A stretch of DNA of 64,000 nucleotides from Cyanobacterium stanieri LEGE 03274. Its GTDB lineage: Bacteria; Cyanobacteriota; Cyanobacteriia; Cyanobacteriales; Cyanobacteriaceae. This document shows positions 8,448 to 59,313 of the stretch, piece by piece. Each line of letters starts with the position of its first letter. Position 1 is the first letter of the stretch. Both the position numbers and the translations under genes were made by a program. The notes beneath the pieces are model-generated. The model worked only from the letters and a program-made list of their open reading frames with translations, was not told where the DNA came from and did not search any database. The stretch spans positions 1-64,000 of the forward strand of contig NZ_JADEWC010000002.1 of assembly GCF_015207825.1 (NCBI RefSeq), given 5' to 3'.

Positions 8448-8488
8448 AAATTATAATATTAATTTTGATCATCAATTAATTATCCACC

Positions 8489-9031
8489 ATGGACAACTTA
8501 TATATATACATCATTACTGCTTTGATGCCCATCGCCACCTTTTTGTTTATCCTGCAAAAAAATCCTTACTATGCCCTAGTAATTAGAGGAATACTAGGGG
8601 CTGTAGCGGTTTTAGTTTATGTGGTTTTAGGGGGCGCTGATGTGGCCTTAACCGAAGCCCTAGTGGGTACTTTATTAAGTATTGCTCTTTATATTATTGC
8701 CATTCGTTCATCGATGATCCTTAAAATGGGTATTCTAAGCAATTCGGAAGGTTCGGCAGAATTGACCGAAATTAATGCTAAATTAAAGGAAGTTATTGCT
8801 CAACACTATTTAAGATTGGAGCTATTAACCTATGAAACCAAAGAGCAGTTAAATAACGCCCTCAAGAATGAAGATATTCACGGTATCATCTCCAATACTC
8901 AGGAGGAGGAAACTGGCTCTATATCATCCTATCAAACCATTGTGAGAGTTCCTCGGATATACGAAATTATTAAGCCTGAAATTAATCAAGTGTTTATGGA
9001 TAAAAAATTAGAAGGAGCTATTAAACACTAA
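8489..9031 (+). CDS. MbhD/DUF4040-type membrane protein (Mrp antiporter-like subunit)
   Basis: The first ~80 residues hold three transmembrane segments with the signature VLGGADVALTEALVGTLLS, which is typical of the MbhD/DUF4040 family (C-terminal part of MrpA and of membrane-bound hydrogenase subunits). The remaining ~100 residues are a soluble, charged tail. Family members work inside multi-subunit Na+/H+ antiporters or hydrogenase-type ion pumps. No partner subunits are encoded nearby: it stands between prfA and panB, followed by its own terminator. The role of this orphan copy is unknown. Confidence 0.75.
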   Translation: MDNLYIYIITALMPIATFLFILQKNPYYALVIRGILGAVAVLVYVVLGGADVALTEALVGTLLSIALYIIAIRSSMILKMGILSNSEGSAELTEINAKLKEVIAQHYLRLELLTYETKEQLNNALKNEDIHGIISNTQEEETGSISSYQTIVRVPRIYEIIKPEINQVFMDKKLEGAIKH

Positions 9032-9117
9032 TATTAACCATGTCAGATGTTAGGGAGATGAGGAGGCGGAAAATAAGGTAATGAGTGCTGAGAAAGGTTT
9101 AATTATTAATTTTTCAT

Positions 9118-9146
9118 TGCCCATCTCAAAGAAGGGCATTTTTTTT
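9118..9146 (+). terminator. Rho-independent terminator after DUF4040 gene
   Basis: TGCCC at 9118 pairs with GGGCA at 9134 around an 11-base loop and is followed by eight T. It separates the DUF4040 gene from panB. Confidence 0.75.
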
Positions 9147-9187
9147 CGTCAAGGCGTAATTATTAGCTATTAAGCATTTAACAACAA

Positions 9188-9961
9188 ATGAAAGTCACTA
9201 TTCAAAAATTGTGTCAATGGAAACAGGAAAAAAAGCCTATTGTATGTTTGACGGCTTGGGATTATGCCATCGCATCTTTACTCGATGATGCTCAAATTGA
9301 CTTAATTTTGGTGGGCGATTCCTTGGCCATGGTGGCATTAGGTCATAATAATACTTTACCCATTACCCTTGAGGAGATGATACACCATACTAAGGCTGTG
9401 TGTCGGGGGGTAAAACGCTCTTTTGTGGTGTGTGATTTACCTTTTTTAACCTATCAAACCAGTGTAACCCATGCCATTGAGTCGGCGGGGAAAATTATTA
9501 AGGAAACCAATGCTGATGCGGTGAAACTAGAGGGGGGTTATCCTGCCATGGTGGAAACAGTGACTAGATTAACGGAAATTGGTATTCCTGTTATGGGTCA
9601 TGTGGGCTTAACTCCTCAGTCTGTAAGGGTTTTGGGTTATAAACAACAAGGTAAAAGTGCGATCGCCCAAGAAACCATTTTTAATCAAGCGGTAGCCCTC
9701 GAAAAAGCAGGGGCTTTTGCCATTGTATTAGAACATATGACCGAAGAATTAGCACAAAAAATTACCCACAGTCTTTCCATTCCTACCATTGGTATCGGGG
9801 CGGGAAAAAGTTGCGATGGACAGGTATTAGTAACCGCTGATTTATTGGGTTTATCCCCAAAAGTACCTCCTTTTGCCAAGATTTATACGGATTTAAAAAC
9901 CATTATTTCCGATTCCGTAAGTCAGTATGCTAAAGAAGTGCGATCGCACCAATTTCCCTAA
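9188..9961 (+). CDS. panB: 3-methyl-2-oxobutanoate hydroxymethyltransferase
   Basis: This enzyme makes ketopantoate from 2-oxoisovalerate and methylene-tetrahydrofolate, the first committed step to pantothenate and CoA. The 257-residue sequence shows family signatures: [16 protein letters not shown], the metal-site segment [36 protein letters not shown] and the late [15 protein letters not shown]. The length is near the usual 260-280. It is transcribed alone; the next downstream feature is a repeat. Other pantothenate genes are not in the window. Confidence 0.96.
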
Positions 9962-50400: not shown

Positions 50401-50492
50401 CTACAGATACAAAAAAAAGTGGACAGATGCCCACCAAAAAAAATCATATTTTTTTTAATTGCTTGTATTTTTCCCCTAACAAGAAAGAAAAA

Positions 50493-51404
50493 TTAACTAC
50501 CGCTTACACGGGCAATATCTTGGGAATTAGCTTCAAAAGCCGCATTGAGGGCATCATCACCACTCAAACCAGAGTCAATGGCTTCTTTTAATGCCTCCAA
50601 AACACGCTTATAATCACGGGGCATTACCTTAACAAATTTACTGATGTTTTCCTGCCAATTAGCAAGGACTTTTTCAGCTTTTTTGCTATTAGTAAGCTGT
50701 TGATGATTAGTAATTAATTGTTTTAACTCGGCAATTTCCGAAGCATCATCGAGGGTTTCTAAGCCAACCATCTCAGTATTGCAACGGGTGGCAAAATCTC
50801 CTTTTTCATCGAGAATATAGGCAACACCGCCACTCATACCAGCGGCAAAATTGCGCCCTGTATCGCCGATAATGACTACTTTACCCCCTGTCATGTATTC
50901 GCAACCATGATCGCCCACACCTTCAACTATGGCGGTGACTCCTGAGTTACGCACACAAAAACGCTCTCCCGCAATGCCCGAAATATAGGCTTCTCCACTG
51001 GTAGCGCCATAAAAGGCAACGTTACCAACGATAATATTTTCCTCAGCTTCAAAGGTGGCTTTTTTGTCGGGATAAACGATGATTTTTCCACCGCTTAAGC
51101 CTTTACCGATATAGTCATTGGCATCTCCTTCTAACTCGAGGGTAACTCCTTTGGGTACAAAGGCACCTAAACTTTGCCCGGCACTACCGACGAAGTGTAA
51201 ATGCACCGTATCCTCGGGTAAACCTTGCCAGTGGTTTTTGGTAATCTCGTTACCTAGGATAGTACCCACCACACGATTAGTATTTTTGATGGGGAGGGTA
51301 GCGGTAACTTTTTCCCCTTTCTCAATGGCTGGTTTACACAAATCTAGTAGAGTAGTCATATCAAGGGATTTTTCTAAATCATGATTTTGTTTGATGGTAC
51401 AATA
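50493..51404 (-). pseudogene. Duplicated 3' fragment of gltB (glutamate synthase large subunit)
   Basis: The plus-strand block is a second copy of the gltB 3' end (54691-55602). The open frame from 51359 is 288 residues and covers only the C-terminal GXGXG beta-helix domain, with no amidotransferase, FMN or Fe-S part. I count twelve amino-acid differences from the intact gene. The DNA is identical over 50749-51140 (392 bp) but differs at dozens of sites on both sides. Similarity stops at about 51404, where TTTATATC begins. The Met at its start is Ile in the intact gene (ATG versus ATT). It is most likely a non-functional by-product of integration, though an expressed domain is not excluded. 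Confidence 0.88.
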
Positions 51405-51519
51405 AAGTAACTTTATATCAAAAAAGAATATATATGTCTAAAATTAACTCTTTTTGGATATGATTTAACCATGCAATAAAATCAAGCTAAATAGATTAAG
51501 ATAATTTCACTATATTATA

Positions 51520-52575
51520 ATGCCCGAATCAGAACATCATTTTGATTTTAAAGAACATTTATTAAAAAGAAGATTACGACGTTTGCCCACAGAAAAAATA
51601 ACAAAATTTTGGGAAAATGAGGATATTGATTTTACTGGACTTATAAGTCAGAAGGATATTGTAGATAAGATTATTACTGAATATAAAATTAAGTTTTCTA
51701 ATCAACAATTTACTAGCAAATTCAAAGATTTTCTCAGGGATGTGGTATTAACAGCTCGTGAAGCTGATTATTTGATTTCCATAAATAATTCTGAAAAAAT
51801 AATTCAATGGATGCAATCTTGGTCAAATAATACTTTTGTAGGTCAAAAACATAATTTTCAACTACATACAGTTGTTGAACTGAATCATAAATCTTTGCCA
51901 GTAAATAGAAATTTAGATAATGTAAAGATTGATACAGAAAAATTTAAGATGGATCAGATTTCGTTTCCTAGTATTGTTGGATTTATAGTTGCTTCTAGCA
52001 AAACTATCAAACGAGAATTAGATGGATTAGAAGAAATATCTTACTATCCAACTAAAGAATTCGAAATTATCCTCAGAAAGGATTTAGATATAGTAGAAGT
52101 AAGAGGTGCATTTCAAGTAGTTAAGGATTTTGTTTCAACAGCTATTTTAGACAGGCATAATCCTTTATCATCTGCAGAAAGTTATTTCATTGGGGAAAAA
52201 GAAGATTCTAAAAAAGCTATCACTAAAGTCACTAGACAGATAATTAGAATAGATACCTTAAAACATCTTCTTGATGGTTCATACACAAAATTATCATCTC
52301 CATTTAATGGTACCAAAATCTCTAATTTTGAAGTAACACTTGATGATCTAAAGAATATCGCTGAGGAAACTCATCCAGAAGCACAAGCTGTTTTACAAGA
52401 AATGATGAAAAACCCAGTTAAGGGAAACATCTGTTTCTGTTACAATCAGAGTAAATATTCTTTTTCTGTAACAAAGACAGGAGGACTACTTTTTCGAGAA
52501 TATATACCCGAAGAAGTGGTTACATATATATTGTACAATATCAAACTCTCAGCTTATGTTCTCTCAGGAAACTGA
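51520..52575 (+). CDS. Unknown island protein, 351 aa
   Basis: I do not recognise a family. The protein is charged and soluble, with no signal peptide or transmembrane helix. The N-terminus (FKEHLLKRRLRRLPTEKITK) is basic and helical and could bind nucleic acid. A central part, FPSIVGFIVASSKTIKRELDG followed by FEIILRKDLDIVEVRGAFQVV, looks alpha/beta. The C-terminus (GNICFCYNQSKYSFSVTKTG) is beta-rich. It overlaps the next gene by 20 bp, so the two are translationally coupled. It is the first gene of the operon-like trio with a nuclease, which suggests a defence role. Confidence 0.75.
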   Translation: MPESEHHFDFKEHLLKRRLRRLPTEKITKFWENEDIDFTGLISQKDIVDKIITEYKIKFSNQQFTSKFKDFLRDVVLTAREADYLISINNSEKIIQWMQSWSNNTFVGQKHNFQLHTVVELNHKSLPVNRNLDNVKIDTEKFKMDQISFPSIVGFIVASSKTIKRELDGLEEISYYPTKEFEIILRKDLDIVEVRGAFQVVKDFVSTAILDRHNPLSSAESYFIGEKEDSKKAITKVTRQIIRIDTLKHLLDGSYTKLSSPFNGTKISNFEVTLDDLKNIAEETHPEAQAVLQEMMKNPVKGNICFCYNQSKYSFSVTKTGGLLFREYIPEEVVTYILYNIKLSAYVLSGN

Positions 52576-52876
52576 AATATCTAATTTGGTTCGAGAATAC
52601 ACTAAACAGAAATATCATGGTGGCTTGATTGGCATTTCTGATTTGGCTGAATATTGTGGTGTCTTAGAGGGAGAATTATATAAAATATTATTTCAAATGC
52701 AGTCCGAAAATGAGCTAAAAATAATTAAAAGATATTTTTGTCCAGAGTTTCATCGAATTGAAAAAAATCTGAATGATCATGAATCTTATTGTGAAGAGTG
52801 TGATTATATGTACCCTAATGAACAGCTTGAAGTAGCGGTATATATTGAACCATTGAAGATAAAAGTAACGAGATAA
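52556..52876 (+). CDS. Small winged-helix and zinc-finger-like protein, 106 aa
   Basis: Residues ~5-58 fit a winged helix (ISDLAEYCGVLEGELYKILF with a recognition-helix-like part). They are followed by a Cys/His cluster, C62-x3-H66, H75-x3-C79-x2-C82 (CPEFH and HESYCEEC), that looks like a zinc-binding site. No named family is recognised. It starts inside the 351-aa gene and ends two bases before the nuclease-like gene, so the three are probably one operon. A role as sensor, adaptor or DNA-binding specificity subunit is possible. Confidence 0.72.
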   Translation: MFSQETEISNLVREYTKQKYHGGLIGISDLAEYCGVLEGELYKILFQMQSENELKIIKRYFCPEFHRIEKNLNDHESYCEECDYMYPNEQLEVAVYIEPLKIKVTR

Positions 52877-52878
52877 AG

Positions 52879-53547
52879 ATGGATGAGAATAAGTTCTTGA
52901 CAGATATTCAGGACTACATCAATAAAAGAATTAATTTTGACATTCAAAAAAAAGATTTAATAAATTGCAATAATTGTTTTTCTTGTGATGATCAATATAA
53001 ATTTGAAAAGGAAATTGTCCAGAAAATAAAATCTAAGGACTTTCAAAATACTACAGAACAAGGAAATCTTTTAGAAGATTTAGTTAAAAGTCTATTCAAA
53101 AGAATCACACTAATTAGTTCTTTATCTGTTACAAATAAAGATACTGCTTTAGGACAAATTGATATTAATTTAATTCCTATTGATGAAACAATATATGAAA
53201 TATGGGGAATGATAGGCGATTTTCCGTCATGCTTAATCGGAGAATGTAAAAATTATAATAAGTCGTCTGTGGGAAGACCAGAAATAGAAAAAATGTGTTG
53301 GCGAACAGGCAAAGGACAAGCATTGAGCTTTTTTATTGCCCCATCTTACACAAAAGAGGCTATTGAAGAAATAAGTTATTTTAACTTATCAAAAGAAAGT
53401 ATCCTAAAGAAAAGTCAAGGGGTTTATCTTGTTCCTCTGACGTTGAAAATGCTTGAAATTATTGTTGATAATAACTTAAATTTTTGTTATTTTATCCGTT
53501 GGGCGATTCAATCCTCAAAAAAAATGGCGATCGCAAATTATCTTTAA
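52879..53547 (+). CDS. PD-(D/E)XK nuclease-like protein, 222 aa
   Basis: The sequence shows the restriction-endonuclease-fold pattern: Glu66 in GNLLEDLVKSLF, Asp95 in LGQIDINLIPI and E122-x-K124 in LIGECKNYNKSSVGRPEIEK, with spacing typical of Mrr-like PD-(D/E)XK enzymes. The N-terminus carries C30-x2-C33-x2-C36, possibly a metal site. It would cut DNA; whether it is guided by the two upstream proteins is unknown. No methyltransferase is present, so this is not a classic restriction-modification pair. Confidence 0.8.
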   Translation: MDENKFLTDIQDYINKRINFDIQKKDLINCNNCFSCDDQYKFEKEIVQKIKSKDFQNTTEQGNLLEDLVKSLFKRITLISSLSVTNKDTALGQIDINLIPIDETIYEIWGMIGDFPSCLIGECKNYNKSSVGRPEIEKMCWRTGKGQALSFFIAPSYTKEAIEEISYFNLSKESILKKSQGVYLVPLTLKMLEIIVDNNLNFCYFIRWAIQSSKKMAIANYL

Positions 53548-53631
53548 TACAAAAATACGCAAAACACGATCACCTTTCGACTTCTACACATACTTTAAAA
53601 ATGATCGCATTATAGCAATTTTATCCTAATA

Positions 53632-53652
53632 GCATTATTTAAGTTATAATGC
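53632..53652. repeat. 7-bp inverted repeat GCATTAT/ATAATGC
   Basis: Perfect 7-bp arms with a seven-base spacer sit 48 bp before the cold-shock-domain gene. It could be an operator or part of its promoter; an ATAATG-like -10 element overlaps it. Confidence 0.5.
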
Positions 53653-53699
53653 AATGAAAATATACCTTTCGTGGTTCGTCAATTTGTAGAACTGGCTTT

Positions 53700-54590
53700 A
53701 TGACAATAGACTTTGGTTATATCAAGAATTACCATTCTGATAGAGGTTTTGGATTTGTTGGTTGTACTTTTTCTAATCAAAACAGTCAAGTTTTCTTTCA
53801 TATTAAGAAAATAAAGAGCAAATATCGTGAATTAGCTCAAAAATTAGACAATGATGACATTTTTGAACCTGTAAGTTTTTGGTATGAAATTGAAACTACT
53901 CAAAAACGGAAACAAGTTAGTGAAGTTTGGTTAAATAAAGATGATATTCCTTCATGTTATGCACATCAATTTGATGGTTTTATTGAAACAGTTGAGAATA
54001 TGTGGAAAAACATAGACTCATCAAAACCTAGTTGGCTTGATATTGTCACAATAGAGTTAGTTGGAATTAATCGTAAAGATGAATTAAGTCTTCAAAGAAA
54101 TAATTTAGAGATTCAACGGAGGGAGGCTGAGGAAAGAAAACGCAAAGATGCTGATGTTGAACGCTTAAGACAAATAGAACTTCAAAGAGAAAGAGAACGT
54201 CAAGAAGTTGAACATCAAAAACAGATTAGGGTTGATAAAGAGAATGAAGTTAGAAGACTAAGTGTCAAATATGAGAAATATTTAGAAGGCGTAGAAGCGG
54301 CCGGGGAATTATATGAGCTATTAGAAGAAATGCGTCAGCTTCCTGAAGAAGAAAGATTTACACATAGTAAGCAACTTTCAAATTATATTGTACGAAAGAA
54401 ACTTGGTTATAAGTATAAACATATCTCAGGTATTTTAAGAATGCAAAATGGAACGGATGAATGGGATTTTAAAGGGGGGTTTCCCACTGACATTTATAGA
54501 ATTATTTGTCAAGAACTTGGACTAGATAACCAACATACAACGGCTAGACCTGTCGGTTTTAGATCATTTAAGGATGTTTATAAATTTTAA
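53700..54590 (+). CDS. Cold-shock-domain/coiled-coil protein, 296 aa
   Basis: The N-terminus has a cold-shock-like OB fold: FGYIKNYHSDRGFGFVG with the RNP1-type RGFGFV and VFFHIKKI as the RNP2-type strand. Residues ~125-215 are a strongly charged coiled coil (LQRERERQEVEHQKQ). The C-terminal ~75 residues (LGYKYKHISGILRMQNGTDE) form a small unassigned domain. Cold-shock domains bind single-stranded RNA or DNA; the long fusion is unusual and differs from the 65-70-residue chaperones. It is monocistronic with a terminator at 54634. It could be the nucleic-acid sensor of the island or an independent gene. Confidence 0.8.
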   Translation: MTIDFGYIKNYHSDRGFGFVGCTFSNQNSQVFFHIKKIKSKYRELAQKLDNDDIFEPVSFWYEIETTQKRKQVSEVWLNKDDIPSCYAHQFDGFIETVENMWKNIDSSKPSWLDIVTIELVGINRKDELSLQRNNLEIQRREAEERKRKDADVERLRQIELQRERERQEVEHQKQIRVDKENEVRRLSVKYEKYLEGVEAAGELYELLEEMRQLPEEERFTHSKQLSNYIVRKKLGYKYKHISGILRMQNGTDEWDFKGGFPTDIYRIICQELGLDNQHTTARPVGFRSFKDVYKF

Positions 54591-54633
54591 TATGCTCTTA
54601 AACTTTTGATGTATATAAGTTTTAGTTTTTGCC

Positions 54634-54673
54634 AAAGGGGGAAGTTCGGTTATTAAACTGTCTCCCCCTTTTT
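54634..54673 (+). terminator. Terminator after the cold-shock-domain gene
   Basis: AAAGGGGGA at 54634 and TCCCCCTTT at 54663 pair around a ~20-base loop and are followed by further T. It stands at the junction with the gltB 3' end. Confidence 0.78.
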
Positions 54674-54690
54674 AGGAGAGATTTAGGAAA

Positions 54691-57600
54691 TTAACTTCCT
54701 CCAACTCTGGCAACATCTTGGGCGTTAGCTTCAAATGCCGCATTTAACGCTTCATCACCGCTTAAACCAGAATTAATTGCCTCTTTTAGTGCCTCTAAAA
54801 CTCGCTTATAATCACGGGGCATTACCTTGACAAATTTACTGATATTTTCCTGCCAATGAGCGAGGACTTTCTCAGCTTTTTTACTATTAGTAAGCTGTTG
54901 ATGATTAGTAATTAATTGTTTTAATTCGGCAATTTCCGAAGCATCTTCGAGGGTTTCTAAGCCAACCATCTCAGTATTGCAACGGGTGGCAAAATCTCCT
55001 TTTTCATCGAGAATATAGGCAACACCGCCACTCATACCAGCGGCAAAATTGCGCCCTGTATCGCCGATAATGACTACTTTACCCCCTGTCATGTATTCGC
55101 AACCATGATCGCCCACACCTTCAACTATGGCGGTGACTCCTGAGTTACGCACACAAAAACGCTCTCCCGCAATGCCCGAAATATAGGCTTCTCCACTGGT
55201 AGCGCCATAAAAGGCAACGTTACCAACGATAATATTTTCCTCAGCTTCAAAGGTGGCTTTTTTGTCGGGATAAACGATGATTTTTCCACCGCTTAAGCCT
55301 TTACCGATATAGTCATTGGCATCTCCTTCTAACTCGAGAGTAACGCCCTTGGGTACAAAAGCGCCTAAACTTTGCCCAGCACTGCCGATGAAGTGTAAAT
55401 GCACCGTATCCTCTGGTAAACCTTGCCAGTGGTTTTTGGTAATCTCGTTACCTAGGATAGTACCCACCACACGATTAGTATTTTTGATGGGGAGGGTGGC
55501 GGTAACTTTTTCCCCCGTTGCGATCGCACCTTTACACAAATCCAGTAGGGTAGTAATATCGAGGGATTTTTCTAAATCATGATTTTGTTTGATGGTACAA
55601 TGGCGAGGCACAGTAGGATCGATTTCAGGTTGATAAAGGATGGGTGATATATCAATACCCTTGGCTTTCCAATGATCGATCGCCCCTTTAGGTTCTAATA
55701 CATCTGTACGTCCTACCATTTCATCCACTGTACGGAAACCCAACTGTGCCATGATTTCCCGCATTTCTTGGGCAATAAATTTCATGAAATTAACCGTATG
55801 GGCAGGATCTCCCGTAAATTTGGCACGAAGTTCGGGGTTTTGAGTGGCAACCCCCACAGGGCAAGTATTGAGATGACACACACGCATCATGATACATCCA
55901 AGACTGACGAGGGGGGCAGTGGAAAAACCATATTCTTCTGCACCCAACAAAGTGGCGATCGCAATGTCGCGCCCAGTTTTCATTTGTCCGTCAGTTTCCA
56001 CCACAATGCGACTACGGAGATTATTTAATAACAAGGTTTGATGGGTTTCCGCCAAACCTAATTCCCACGGTAATCCAGCGTGTTTAATGGAAGTTTTGGG
56101 AGATGCCCCCGTACCACCATCATAGCCAGAAATGAGAACCACATCAGCCTTGGCCTTGGCAACTCCAGAAGCGATAGTGCCTACCCCCACTTCTGACACT
56201 AACTTAACGTTAATTCGGGCGTTGCGGTTAGCATTTTTCAAATCATGGATTAACTCCGCCAAATCCTCGATGGAATAAATATCATGGTGGGGAGGAGGAG
56301 AAATTAAACCCACCCCGGGGGTAGAATAACGCACCTTAGCAATCCAAGGATAAACCTTCTTACCCGGTAACTGTCCCCCTTCTCCCGGTTTCGCACCCTG
56401 CGCCATCTTAATTTGAATTTCCTTGGCTTGGGAAAGATAAAGGCTATTTACCCCAAAACGTCCACTAGCCACCTGCTTAATGGCACTATTTTTCGAGTCT
56501 CCTTGATCATTAATCCAAGTGTAGCGCTCGGGGTCTTCCCCCCCTTCCCCTGTGTTGGATTTACCACCGATACGATTCATGGCAATGGCGAGGGATTCAT
56601 GGGCTTCTTTGGAAATTGAACCATAGCTCATTGCCCCCGTTTTAAACCGTCTCATGATATTCTCAATGGGTTCTACTTTCTCGATGGGGATGGATTCCCG
56701 TTGCTTAAATTCCAATAAATCCCGCAAACGGAAATAATGTTTACCATGATCATTGATCATCTGGGAGTAGGCTTTAAATAGTTGATAATCCCCCTCCCTT
56801 ACCGCTTGTTGTAGGGTGTGGATGGTTTGGGGATTGAAAAGGTGCGCTTCTCCATCCTTACGCCATTGATATTCACCGCCCACATCGAGGGTATGTCCAT
56901 TTACCTGTCTTTGGGGGAAACCGTGGTTATGACGCATGATGGTTTCCTCGGCAATTACTGCCAAATCGACCCCCTGTAAACGGGAAGCAGTACCAGTGAA
57001 ATATTTATGAATGACACTATCATTTAAGCCCACAGACTCGAAAATTTGCGCTCCTCGATAGCTTTGGATGGTGGAAATACCAATTTTGGAGGCGATTTTA
57101 ATTACCCCTTTAGTAACACATTTAATGTAGTTATAGACGGCGGTATCGTAATCTACCCCTGTGATCAATTTTTCCTTGATCATCTGGTTAATGGTTTCAT
57201 AGGCGAGGTAAGGATTAATAGCACCGCAACCATAACCAAGGAGGAGGGCGAAATGGTGAACTTCTTTGGGTTCTCCTGATTCAAGAATTAAGCCCACAAG
57301 GGTGCGGGTGCCGTTGCGGATGAGATGGTGATGTAACCCTGATACCGCCAAGAGGGCAGGAATGGGGGCATTATTTTCATCTACGGTGCGATCGCTCAAA
57401 ATTACATGGGTGCATCCCTGTTCAATGGCTTGATCTACCTGTGCATAAAGGCTCTCCAAGGCTTCTTCTAGTCCTTTTACCCCATCTTTGGGGTTGAATA
57501 CGATGGGGAAGGTTTCTGCTTTGAATTGATGGGATCGATTCTCCCCATCTCCCTTTGATAAGGGGGGCGTTAAAGATTTCAGTTTGGCTAGTTCCTCATT

Positions 57601-59313
57601 GGTGATCACAGGGCTTTTTAGGGCGATGAGGTGACAACTTTCGGGTTGGGGGTTGAGCAGATTTCCTTCCCTACCAATGGTTGTTTCGGGGGAGGTGATA
57701 ATGGCTTCTCGGATGGAGTCTATGGGGGGGTTAGTTACTTGGGCAAATAGTTGTTTGAAGTAGTCGTATAAGAGTTTGGGTTTATCACTCAACACCGCTA
57801 GGGGAGTATCTATACCCATTGCACCGATCGCCTCTACCCCGTTAGTTGCCATGGGAGCGAGTAACATTCGCAAGTCTTCAAAGGTATAACCGAAGGTTTG
57901 TTGGAGGGGTATGAGATCTCCCCCAGCCCCCCTTGATAAGGGAGGAGTAGAGGGCAAGTCATCGAGGGTATATAAATTTTTGTCGAGCCATTGTTGATAG
58001 GGTTTTTCCGTGACGATCGCCTTTTTTACTTCCTCATCCGCTACGATGCGCCCTGCTTCCATATCCACCAAAAACATCTGCCCGGGTTGCAATCTGCCTT
58101 TAGATTCCACCCTTTCTGGTTCGATGGGCAATACTCCGGCTTCTGATGCCATGATGACTAAACCATCTTTGGTGACGGTATATCTGGAGGGGCGTAAGCC
58201 GTTGCGATCCAAAATGGCGCCGATTTGTTTACCATCGGTAAAGGCGATGGAGGCAGGGCCATCCCAAGGTTCCATTAAACAGGAGTGATATTGATAAAAG
58301 GCTTTTTTGTCTGCGTCCATGGATTCATGCCCCGTCCAGGGTTCAGGAATCATCATCATCACGGCATGGGGAACGCTACGCCCACTTAATACCAGCATTT
58401 CGAGGGCGTTATCAAAGATGAGGGAGTCACTACCATCAATGTTAATAATGGGTTGGATTTTTGCCATGTCTTCCCCAAATAAGTCGGACTCAAAGAGGGC
58501 TTGTCGCGCGCGCATCCAGTTGGTATTACCTTTTAGGGTATTAATTTCCCCGTTGTGGGTGATGTAGCGGTAGGGGTGCGCCCTTTCCCAACTGGGGAAG
58601 GTGTTGGTGCTAAATCTGGAGTGGACGAGGGCCAGGGCGGTTTCTAGGGCGGGGTTATTAAGATCCACATAGTATTTGCCTACTTGGGCGGGGGTTAGCA
58701 TTCCTTTATATACGATGGTACGGCTGGAGATGGTGGCAGGATACCAATACTCATCAATGTTAGTGGTTTTGATGGCACGGTGCGATCGCTTCCTAATTAC
58801 AAATAGGGTGCGCTCGAAGGCAAGATTATCGGTGATGTTGGGGTTTTTGGCGATGAATACCTGTTGTACAAAAGGCTCACTAATTAAGGCACTTTTTCCC
58901 AAATCAGAATTATCGGTGGGTACGTCTCGCCAACCTAATACCTTCTGCCCTTCTTCGGCGACTACTTCTTCAAAGGCTTTTCTGGCTTTCTGTCTTGCTT
59001 CTGGGTTGGGGGAGGTGAAAATCATCCCTACGGCATAATCTCCTTCGGGGGGGAGGGCTATTCCTAATTTTTTCGCTTCCTCATTCATGAAGCTGTGGGG
59101 AATTTGCATCAGTATTCCTGCGCCGTCTCCTGTGTTGGGTTCAGCACCACAACCGCCCCGATGGTCAAGGTTAATTAAAATTGTTAATGCTTGTTGTACT
59201 GTATCGTGAGATTTTTTCCCGTATTTATGCACTACGAAGCCCACACCACAGGCATCATGTTCATTTTGTGGATCGTATAATCCTTGTTTTTTGGGTATAT
59301 TATTTACGGTCAT
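54691..59313 (-). CDS. gltB: Glutamate synthase large subunit (GOGAT)
   Basis: Makes two glutamates from glutamine and 2-oxoglutarate; central to ammonia assimilation. The 1540-residue protein has the N-terminal amidotransferase nucleophile Cys22 in [10 protein letters not shown] with [20 protein letters not shown], the central and FMN domains ([36 protein letters not shown]), the 3Fe-4S cysteines in [19 protein letters not shown] and the C-terminal GXGXG helix. The N-terminal style ([11 protein letters not shown]) points to the NADH-type GltB and not ferredoxin-type GlsF; gltD is not adjacent. Two short Pro/Gly-rich inserts ([20 protein letters not shown]) come from inserted repeats. AGGAAG precedes the ATG. 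Confidence 0.96.
57540..57576. repeat. Palindromic repeat inserted in frame in gltB, site 1
   Basis: CTCCCTTTGATAAGGGGGGCG inside the gltB reading frame encodes [11 protein letters not shown] on the minus strand, around residue 585. It is an imperfect palindrome of the same type as those at 217-297 and keeps the frame open. Confidence 0.72.
57913..57954. repeat. Palindromic repeat inserted in frame in gltB, site 2
   Basis: CCCCCAGCCCCCCTTGATAAGGGAGGAG lies in frame inside gltB and encodes [13 protein letters not shown] around residue 460. The palindrome CCCCCCTTGATAAGGGAGG resembles the upstream-of-pilin repeats. Confidence 0.75.

Follow-up and report, generated by a model that had tools for sequence, protein, structure and literature searches.

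A rare, horizontally moving three-gene cassette with a probable Mrr-like nuclease in cyanobacteria

A compact gene trio in Cyanobacterium stanieri

Three adjoining genes of Cyanobacterium stanieri LEGE 03274, here called A, B and C, would on our preferred reading encode one functional module, a mobile conflict system directed most likely at phage or other DNA entering the cell, and we regard this reading as about evenly balanced between right and wrong. Judged by its base composition and its relatives, the trio is a rare, patchy and discrete A+T-rich cassette that moves horizontally between cyanobacteria. The genes were analysed within a stretch of 64,000 nucleotides, hereafter the window. Gene A (51520-52575, + strand, 351 aa) belongs to no known family and is a proposed sensor or regulator. 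Gene B (52556-52876, + strand, 106 aa) carries a possible winged helix (roughly residues 1-58) and, after it, a candidate C-H-C-C zinc site, and gene C (52879-53547, + strand, 222 aa) encodes a PD-(D/E)XK nuclease candidate with an Mrr_cat-like core and the residues E66, D95 and E122-C-K124. A first-pass annotation of this DNA had described a trio of open reading frames joined by overlap or two-base spacing at 51520-53547, and both coordinates and spacing were verified: the overlap of A and B is 20 nt, with a 2-nt gap from the stop of B to the start of C.

The trio is conserved in order and spacing

The A-B-C order is common to four further cyanobacterial genomes, G280 (L003/L008), LEGE 07170 (L004), G651 (L017) and G707 (L018), which answers positively the question raised by the first-pass annotation of whether the three genes co-occur elsewhere. 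Together with the window's host, these genomes carry five different cyanobacterial family labels. G280 and LEGE 07170 have the same spacing as the window, with the 20-nt overlap and the 2-nt gap; B and C of G651 and G707 overlap by 4 nt, and A of G651 is split into two frames beside an open B and C. Identity to window A was 58, 57 and 35%, with 35 and 39% for the two pieces in G651, and across the four relatives identity was 56, 58, 37 and 35% for B and 69, 67, 46 and 42% for C. Comparison of LEGE 07170 with G280 gave pS/pN values of 0.27/0.05 for A, 0.21/0.08 for B and 0.42/0.05 for C, that is pN/pS of about 0.18, 0.40 and 0.12, respectively, indicating that amino-acid changes are restrained. 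Because order and tight spacing recur in four other genomes and amino-acid changes in all three proteins are restrained, the comparison indicates that A-B-C is more than a chance run of open reading frames.

Genes B and C adjoin every strong A match that we found (G000, G280, G496, G651 and G707), where the G496 stretch is the LEGE 07170 sequence (100% over 19,001 bases). G429 (L038) has a strong full-length match to C and no visible A; its C sits at the end of its contig, so that A and B of this genome cannot be seen. A 60-residue remnant of gene C was observed in G882 (L019, 3977-4156), a genome with no A match, and this remnant is probably a decayed copy.

Matches were few in each draw of genomes, and since the phylum, class and order draws overlap, the counts are not additive. 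C alone matched 2 of 386 cyanobacterial genomes in a whole-genome search of a phylum-wide draw, and a two-row profile of A matched 3 of 388 genomes drawn class-wide. With a three-row profile of C, 8 of 388 genomes from an order-wide draw matched at E 0.01, comprising the window's own genome, G651 and G707 near full length, the G882 remnant and four weak matches. With a five-row profile of C, 5 of 388 genomes drawn class-wide matched: the window's own, G280, G496, G429 and, weakly, G504. A six-row profile of A matched 5 of 388 genomes drawn order-wide at E 0.01, namely the window's own, G651 and G707 besides two with weak fragments. The weak C-profile matches in G326, G776, G783, G848 and G504 and the weak A-profile matches in G722 and G873 were rejected as trio members because they are short or stop-ridden; that of G848 sits in a protein that we take to be a HEAT/Mrr-type nuclease. 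Gene A was present in 1 of the 13 genomes searched from the genus of G651 and in 1 of 9 drawn from the family of G280. A contig-wide scan with A returned LEGE 07170 (L004, a filamentous cyanobacterium) alone, a result that does not establish absence outside cyanobacteria because it used patterns derived from two short stretches of the N-terminus.

Gene C is a probable Mrr-like nuclease

The first-pass annotation had assigned C to the PD-(D/E)XK nucleases on the basis of E66, D95, E122 and K124. In an alignment of five C proteins these residues were found at those positions and are invariant in 5/5, so that the proposed motif is conserved in the homologues; the rest of GECKNY (121-126), R133, P134 and E137 are invariant as well. 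The only Pfam match to C was Mrr_cat, at E 0.018 in one of the five members and below the Pfam cut-off. When C was compared by hhalign with a set of nine Mrr_cat-like proteins, the match was 86.6% with E 5.1e-7, supporting the nuclease assignment at the level of profiles. With C reversed the match was 0.1%, none of 50 column shuffles exceeded 0.6%, and against the same nine proteins B and A reached 0.0% and 0.3%. Among known systems, C comes closest to Mrr and type IV (modification-dependent) restriction, with their catalytic domain Mrr_cat (PF04471): its residues 36-207 align with the Mrr_cat-like proteins, with E66, D95 and E122-x-K124 in register, and the GRPEI stretch of C is common to two of the nine proteins.

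The strength of this match depended on the composition of the set, which was drawn from a search of 13 related genomes with 11 stretches listed; L051 and L056, whose frames were read as stop-ridden, were left out, as was L055 by our own judgement, and L020 was added. L020 entered via the C profile and is hence favoured by how it was found. Leaving out L020 lowered the match of C to 44.9%, and the other drop-outs gave 80.0% (L046 and L047), 94.5% (L048) and 88.2% (L052). When the template was narrowed to two or three full Mrr-type proteins, C scored 0.3 or 32.3%. The protein encoded by L020 itself (8473-9711, 412 aa) matches the C profile in its C-terminal part (E 8e-5), and we take it to be an Mrr-type nuclease following a HEAT-like repeat region. 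Residues 41-140 of C also match PHROG 6350, a phage family of unknown function (E 2.6e-5). An AlphaFold model of C from a two-row alignment (window and L004) had a mean pLDDT of 36.5 and was unusable, and the nuclease fold is thus predicted from sequence.

C differs from Mrr in several respects. The Mrr active site is given as PD-QxK in the available text of PMC12707154, whereas C has E122-C-K124 in 5/5. No N-terminal winged helix was recognised in C, which has no room for one before the core and no match to such a domain; the trio does have a winged-helix-like partner for its nuclease, but on a separate protein, and it has in addition the 351-aa protein A. Winged-helix fusion endonucleases such as FcyTI and Psp4BI likewise combine a PD-(D/E)XK nuclease with a winged helix. 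As portrayed in part of PMC11037411, they are 6mA-dependent enzymes with methyltransferase genes rarely nearby, and they are single fused proteins, in contrast to the separate proteins of the trio, to which we liken them by description only. We conclude that C is probably a PD-(D/E)XK nuclease of Mrr-like type in which E-x-K stands where Mrr has Q-x-K.

Genes B and A

B had been described as winged-helix/zinc-finger-like. The zinc-site part of this description agrees with the alignment, where C62, H66, C79 and C82 are invariant in 5/5, whereas winged-helix matches stayed below threshold and stood beside equally weak matches to unrelated families. Single members matched MarR (E 0.078), RuvB_C (0.17) and PadR (0.22) in Pfam, and CdvB (E 0.038) and YhfZ (0.25) in NCBIfam. 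The unrelated, non-significant matches were to KDM6_GATAL (E 0.0096, 2/5), Auxin_BP (0.026) and a WD40 family (0.048). Against the winged-helix N-domain of Mrr, hhalign gave 0.1% for B with a template of 2-3 sequences, so that no relationship was detected. A winged helix plus a zinc site is a plausible reading of B from these residues and matches.

Gene A gave no match above chance in Pfam, NCBIfam or PADLOC, the best E value of 0.016 lying far below the cut-off. In the libraries used, the annotation of A as an unknown 351-aa protein therefore holds, and the family match that could have placed it in a known non-defence family did not appear. AlphaFold from a two-row alignment (window and L004) returned an unusable model of A (mean pLDDT 38.9). 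For the trio, searches of solved structures yielded chance-level matches only (best E 0.02).

The layout of the three genes bears on a toxin-antitoxin or abortive module, in which a toxic nuclease C would be silenced by A and/or B and freed by stress or infection. Small, overlapping genes in a patchy, mobile unit would suit such a module, and the broken A of G651 beside an open B and C would fit B as the silencer. The same locus argues that A is not needed to silence C, since C persists there with a broken A, unless the frame break is a sequencing error; moreover, neither A, B nor C has a significant match to a toxin-antitoxin family. We consider this explanation unlikely.

The trio moves between cyanobacteria

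The trio lies in an island (51404-54687) of 30.0% GC in a window of 38.6%, in agreement with the A+T-rich island reported earlier. HIP1 scarcity, also claimed for the island, proved uninformative, since the 3.3-kb island holds 1 site against about 2.2 expected (43 in 64 kb). The GC content of the trio itself is 29.5, 36.7, 35.6, 31.4 and 39.6% in the window, L004, L008, L017 and L018, respectively, and that of the stretches holding it 38.6, 51.6, 48.9, 38.2 and 57.7%. Between LEGE 07170 and G280, members of two families, trio DNA with short flanks is 88% identical over 2.3 kb, and similarity ends on both sides. Protein identity between these two genomes is 89% for A, 83% for B and 89% for C, as compared with 70% for glutamate synthase; a 35% identity between two proteins of uncertain orthology, identified by eye as DUF3611 relatives, was left out of this comparison. 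The A+T-richness of the trio in all five hosts and the 88% DNA identity between two families together indicate that the cassette moves.

We recognised no integrase or transposase ORF between the window repeats described below or in the 88%-identical 2.3-kb unit. Among 72,556 plasmid records there was no match to A or C (window and G707 versions) or to B of G707, a tblastn search of 50,697 phage records found no relative of window A or C, and viral contigs held no relative of A, B or C.

The island of the window also holds gene D (53700-54590, + strand, 296 aa), which has a cold-shock-like N-terminus (CSD, 25.5 bits against a Pfam cut-off of 27) and has partial relatives on plasmids (43 records, of which 41 are from Vibrio). 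Gene D was rejected as a fourth member because none of the other four loci showed it next to the trio, and from this comparison it is probably a passenger of the window island.

Copies of neighbouring gene ends flank the trio

The island is bordered by a duplication that does not figure in the first-pass annotation. On its left, a copy of the gltB 3' end (50490-51403, - strand, 914 bp) ends 3 nt past the gltB stop and forms the island border, and on the other side stands the full gltB for glutamate synthase (54691-59313, - strand), the 3' part of which, up to 55601, is the other repeat copy. Here and below, the names gltB, sasA and DUF2442 are our presumed reading of the translations where no Pfam match is cited. 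The two copies (50490-51403 and 54688-55601) are 94.1% identical over 914 bp, with 100% identity over alignment columns 300-600, 80% in columns 0-100 and 86% in 800-900. Such unevenness points to gene conversion across the central part of copies that had already diverged. The nearest relative, G749, has one close gltB copy, 93.0% identical to the fragment and 93.3% to the full gene, as well as a gltB paralogue at 67%.

Similar copies occur at other trio loci. At three of the five loci (window, L017 and L004), the 3' end of an adjacent gene is found again 54-496 bp from the trio, the copy ending at the stop codon or no more than 3 nt from it. In L017 (7071-7176/9556-9661) the gene copied in this way encodes an ABC1 kinase (106 bp, 93.4%), and in L004 (8251-8427/9297-9472) an ABC ATPase (177 bp, 88.1%). 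L018 is a probable fourth case (11746-11815/12159-12228; 70 bp, 97.1%), located 116 bp from the trio and reaching 4 nt past the stop in a shared open frame; we count it as probable because the contig breaks off inside the presumed gene. In L004, a copy of a 5' part of a gamma-glutamyltransferase gene (12143-12397/13645-13899; 255 bp, 91.8%) stands on the trio's other flank, with a pentapeptide-repeat gene between this copy and the full gene. The G280 locus has no gene-end copy, and its unit begins 5 nt after the sasA stop.

The 11 fetched stretches (220,201 bases) contain 11 direct-repeat pairs of at least 60 bp and at least 85% identity within 6 kb, and 5 of the 11 border the trio, in stretches chosen around trio loci and not as a genome-wide sample. 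Away from the trio, the window holds direct repeats at 25719-25874/26023-26178 (156 bp, 92%) and 10026-10092/15994-16060 (67 bp, 87%). L038, the contig of G429 with gene C at its end, also has a 234-bp direct repeat (87%) at 1645-1877/4545-4776, and two Uma2-type genes lie a few kilobases away from this repeat.

The copies of a pair differ by 3-12%, which suggests that one is donor-derived and that an incoming fragment may recombine within a shared gene, with an illegitimate join at its other end. Illegitimate recombination of the proposed kind is described in the accessible part of PMC3240628, and a duplication by transformation of another kind in that of PMC3784515. Alternatively, the gene-end copies may be within-genome duplicates that diverged later.

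Partial gene copies beside three, probably four, of the five trio loci are also what a selfish cassette might leave, either because a break made by C promotes copying into new places in a homing-like manner or because the trio is only self-maintaining, with no host defence. The trio is a discrete unit that moves between families and has no integrase or transposase ORF inside it, which favours this explanation. Each of the five genomes, however, has it at a different place (gltB; ABC ATPase/ggt; sasA/gmk; the ABC1-kinase gene; and the off-contig gene end of L018), so that no cognate site is apparent. Furthermore, the trio itself lies between gene and end-copy in the window and L017, but in L004 and L018 a Uma2 or DUF2442-like ORF takes that position, so that the scar is not specific to the C nuclease. 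A selfish cassette seems an improbable account of the trio.

Neighbourhood and known systems

The position of the trio had been called typical of defence cargo. Its patchiness, A+T-richness, horizontal movement and nuclease lend the defence part of this claim indirect support, whereas the neighbours that could be named are mainly housekeeping proteins (Pfam, 39 neighbouring proteins, best 25 of 62 families). A PADLOC scan of the 39 neighbours included mad3, mad8, AriA and E1-E2 among the best 25 of 42 families, not traced to individual proteins. When ten neighbours were scanned singly, Uma2-type genes (L004, G429) and a NADAR-type protein (G280) matched candidate PADLOC models. Uma2 genes are common in cyanobacteria. 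Proximity to defence genes elsewhere, proposed as a check in the first-pass annotation, receives weak support from the Uma2-type and NADAR matches, and the named neighbours do not form a classical defence island.

Housekeeping surroundings would also be in line with an accessory for repair, recombination or DNA processing instead of defence, and PD-(D/E)XK folds serve repair too. Against this, the trio is rare, patchy, A+T-rich and horizontally moved, and we judge such a role very unlikely.

No DNA methyltransferase was recognised among the flanking ORFs listed for the five loci, with about 0.6 kb of flank available on one side of L018, nor among the 39 neighbours in the best 25 of 62 Pfam families; the earlier claim that none accompanies the trio is consistent with these loci. 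In contrast to type II restriction-modification, the trio thus has no recognised cognate DNA methyltransferase beside its nuclease. In PADLOC-DB 2.0.0, window A and B had no match, and C matched only PglX (E 0.0019, 16.6 bits). Membership of PglX or PbeC was rejected, the PADLOC matches being weak. By the sequence features tested, the trio cannot be filed as an Mrr, type II or PADLOC system, and we found no published account of it in a literature represented mostly by titles and abstract openings.

A candidate mobile conflict system

Returning to the conflict system that we prefer, C would cut DNA as an Mrr-like PD-(D/E)XK nuclease using E66, D95, E122 and K124. B would supply DNA contact through its probable winged helix and zinc site, and A, which has no family match, would sense a trigger or keep the nuclease inactive until needed. 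In outline, such a module would resemble type IV (Mrr-type) restriction with DNA recognition and cleavage divided between polypeptides and a further partner added. What the analysis shows is the tightly packed trio and its conservation, the invariant nuclease motif of C with its Mrr_cat resemblance, and horizontal movement; cleavage of DNA, the sensor-adaptor-effector roles put forward in the first-pass annotation and a defence purpose are inference. Spread may proceed by homologous recombination in a neighbouring gene, with one homologous and one illegitimate join, and the 3'-end copy of that gene would be the scar, derived from donor or recipient.

A fuller version would make the trio a new cyanobacterial defence family, in which a sensor A and a winged-helix/zinc adaptor B gate an Mrr-like effector C and which spreads without an integrase by this route; we advance it as possible, and on the doubtful side. 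Protein A represents a family recognised by no library used here. The trio offers a compact three-gene candidate for cyanobacterial phage-challenge tests, in which the predicted active site of C could be mutated. The adjoining gene-end copies suggest that small cassettes may gain entry to transformable cyanobacteria with no integrase, a route that comparative genomics can test.
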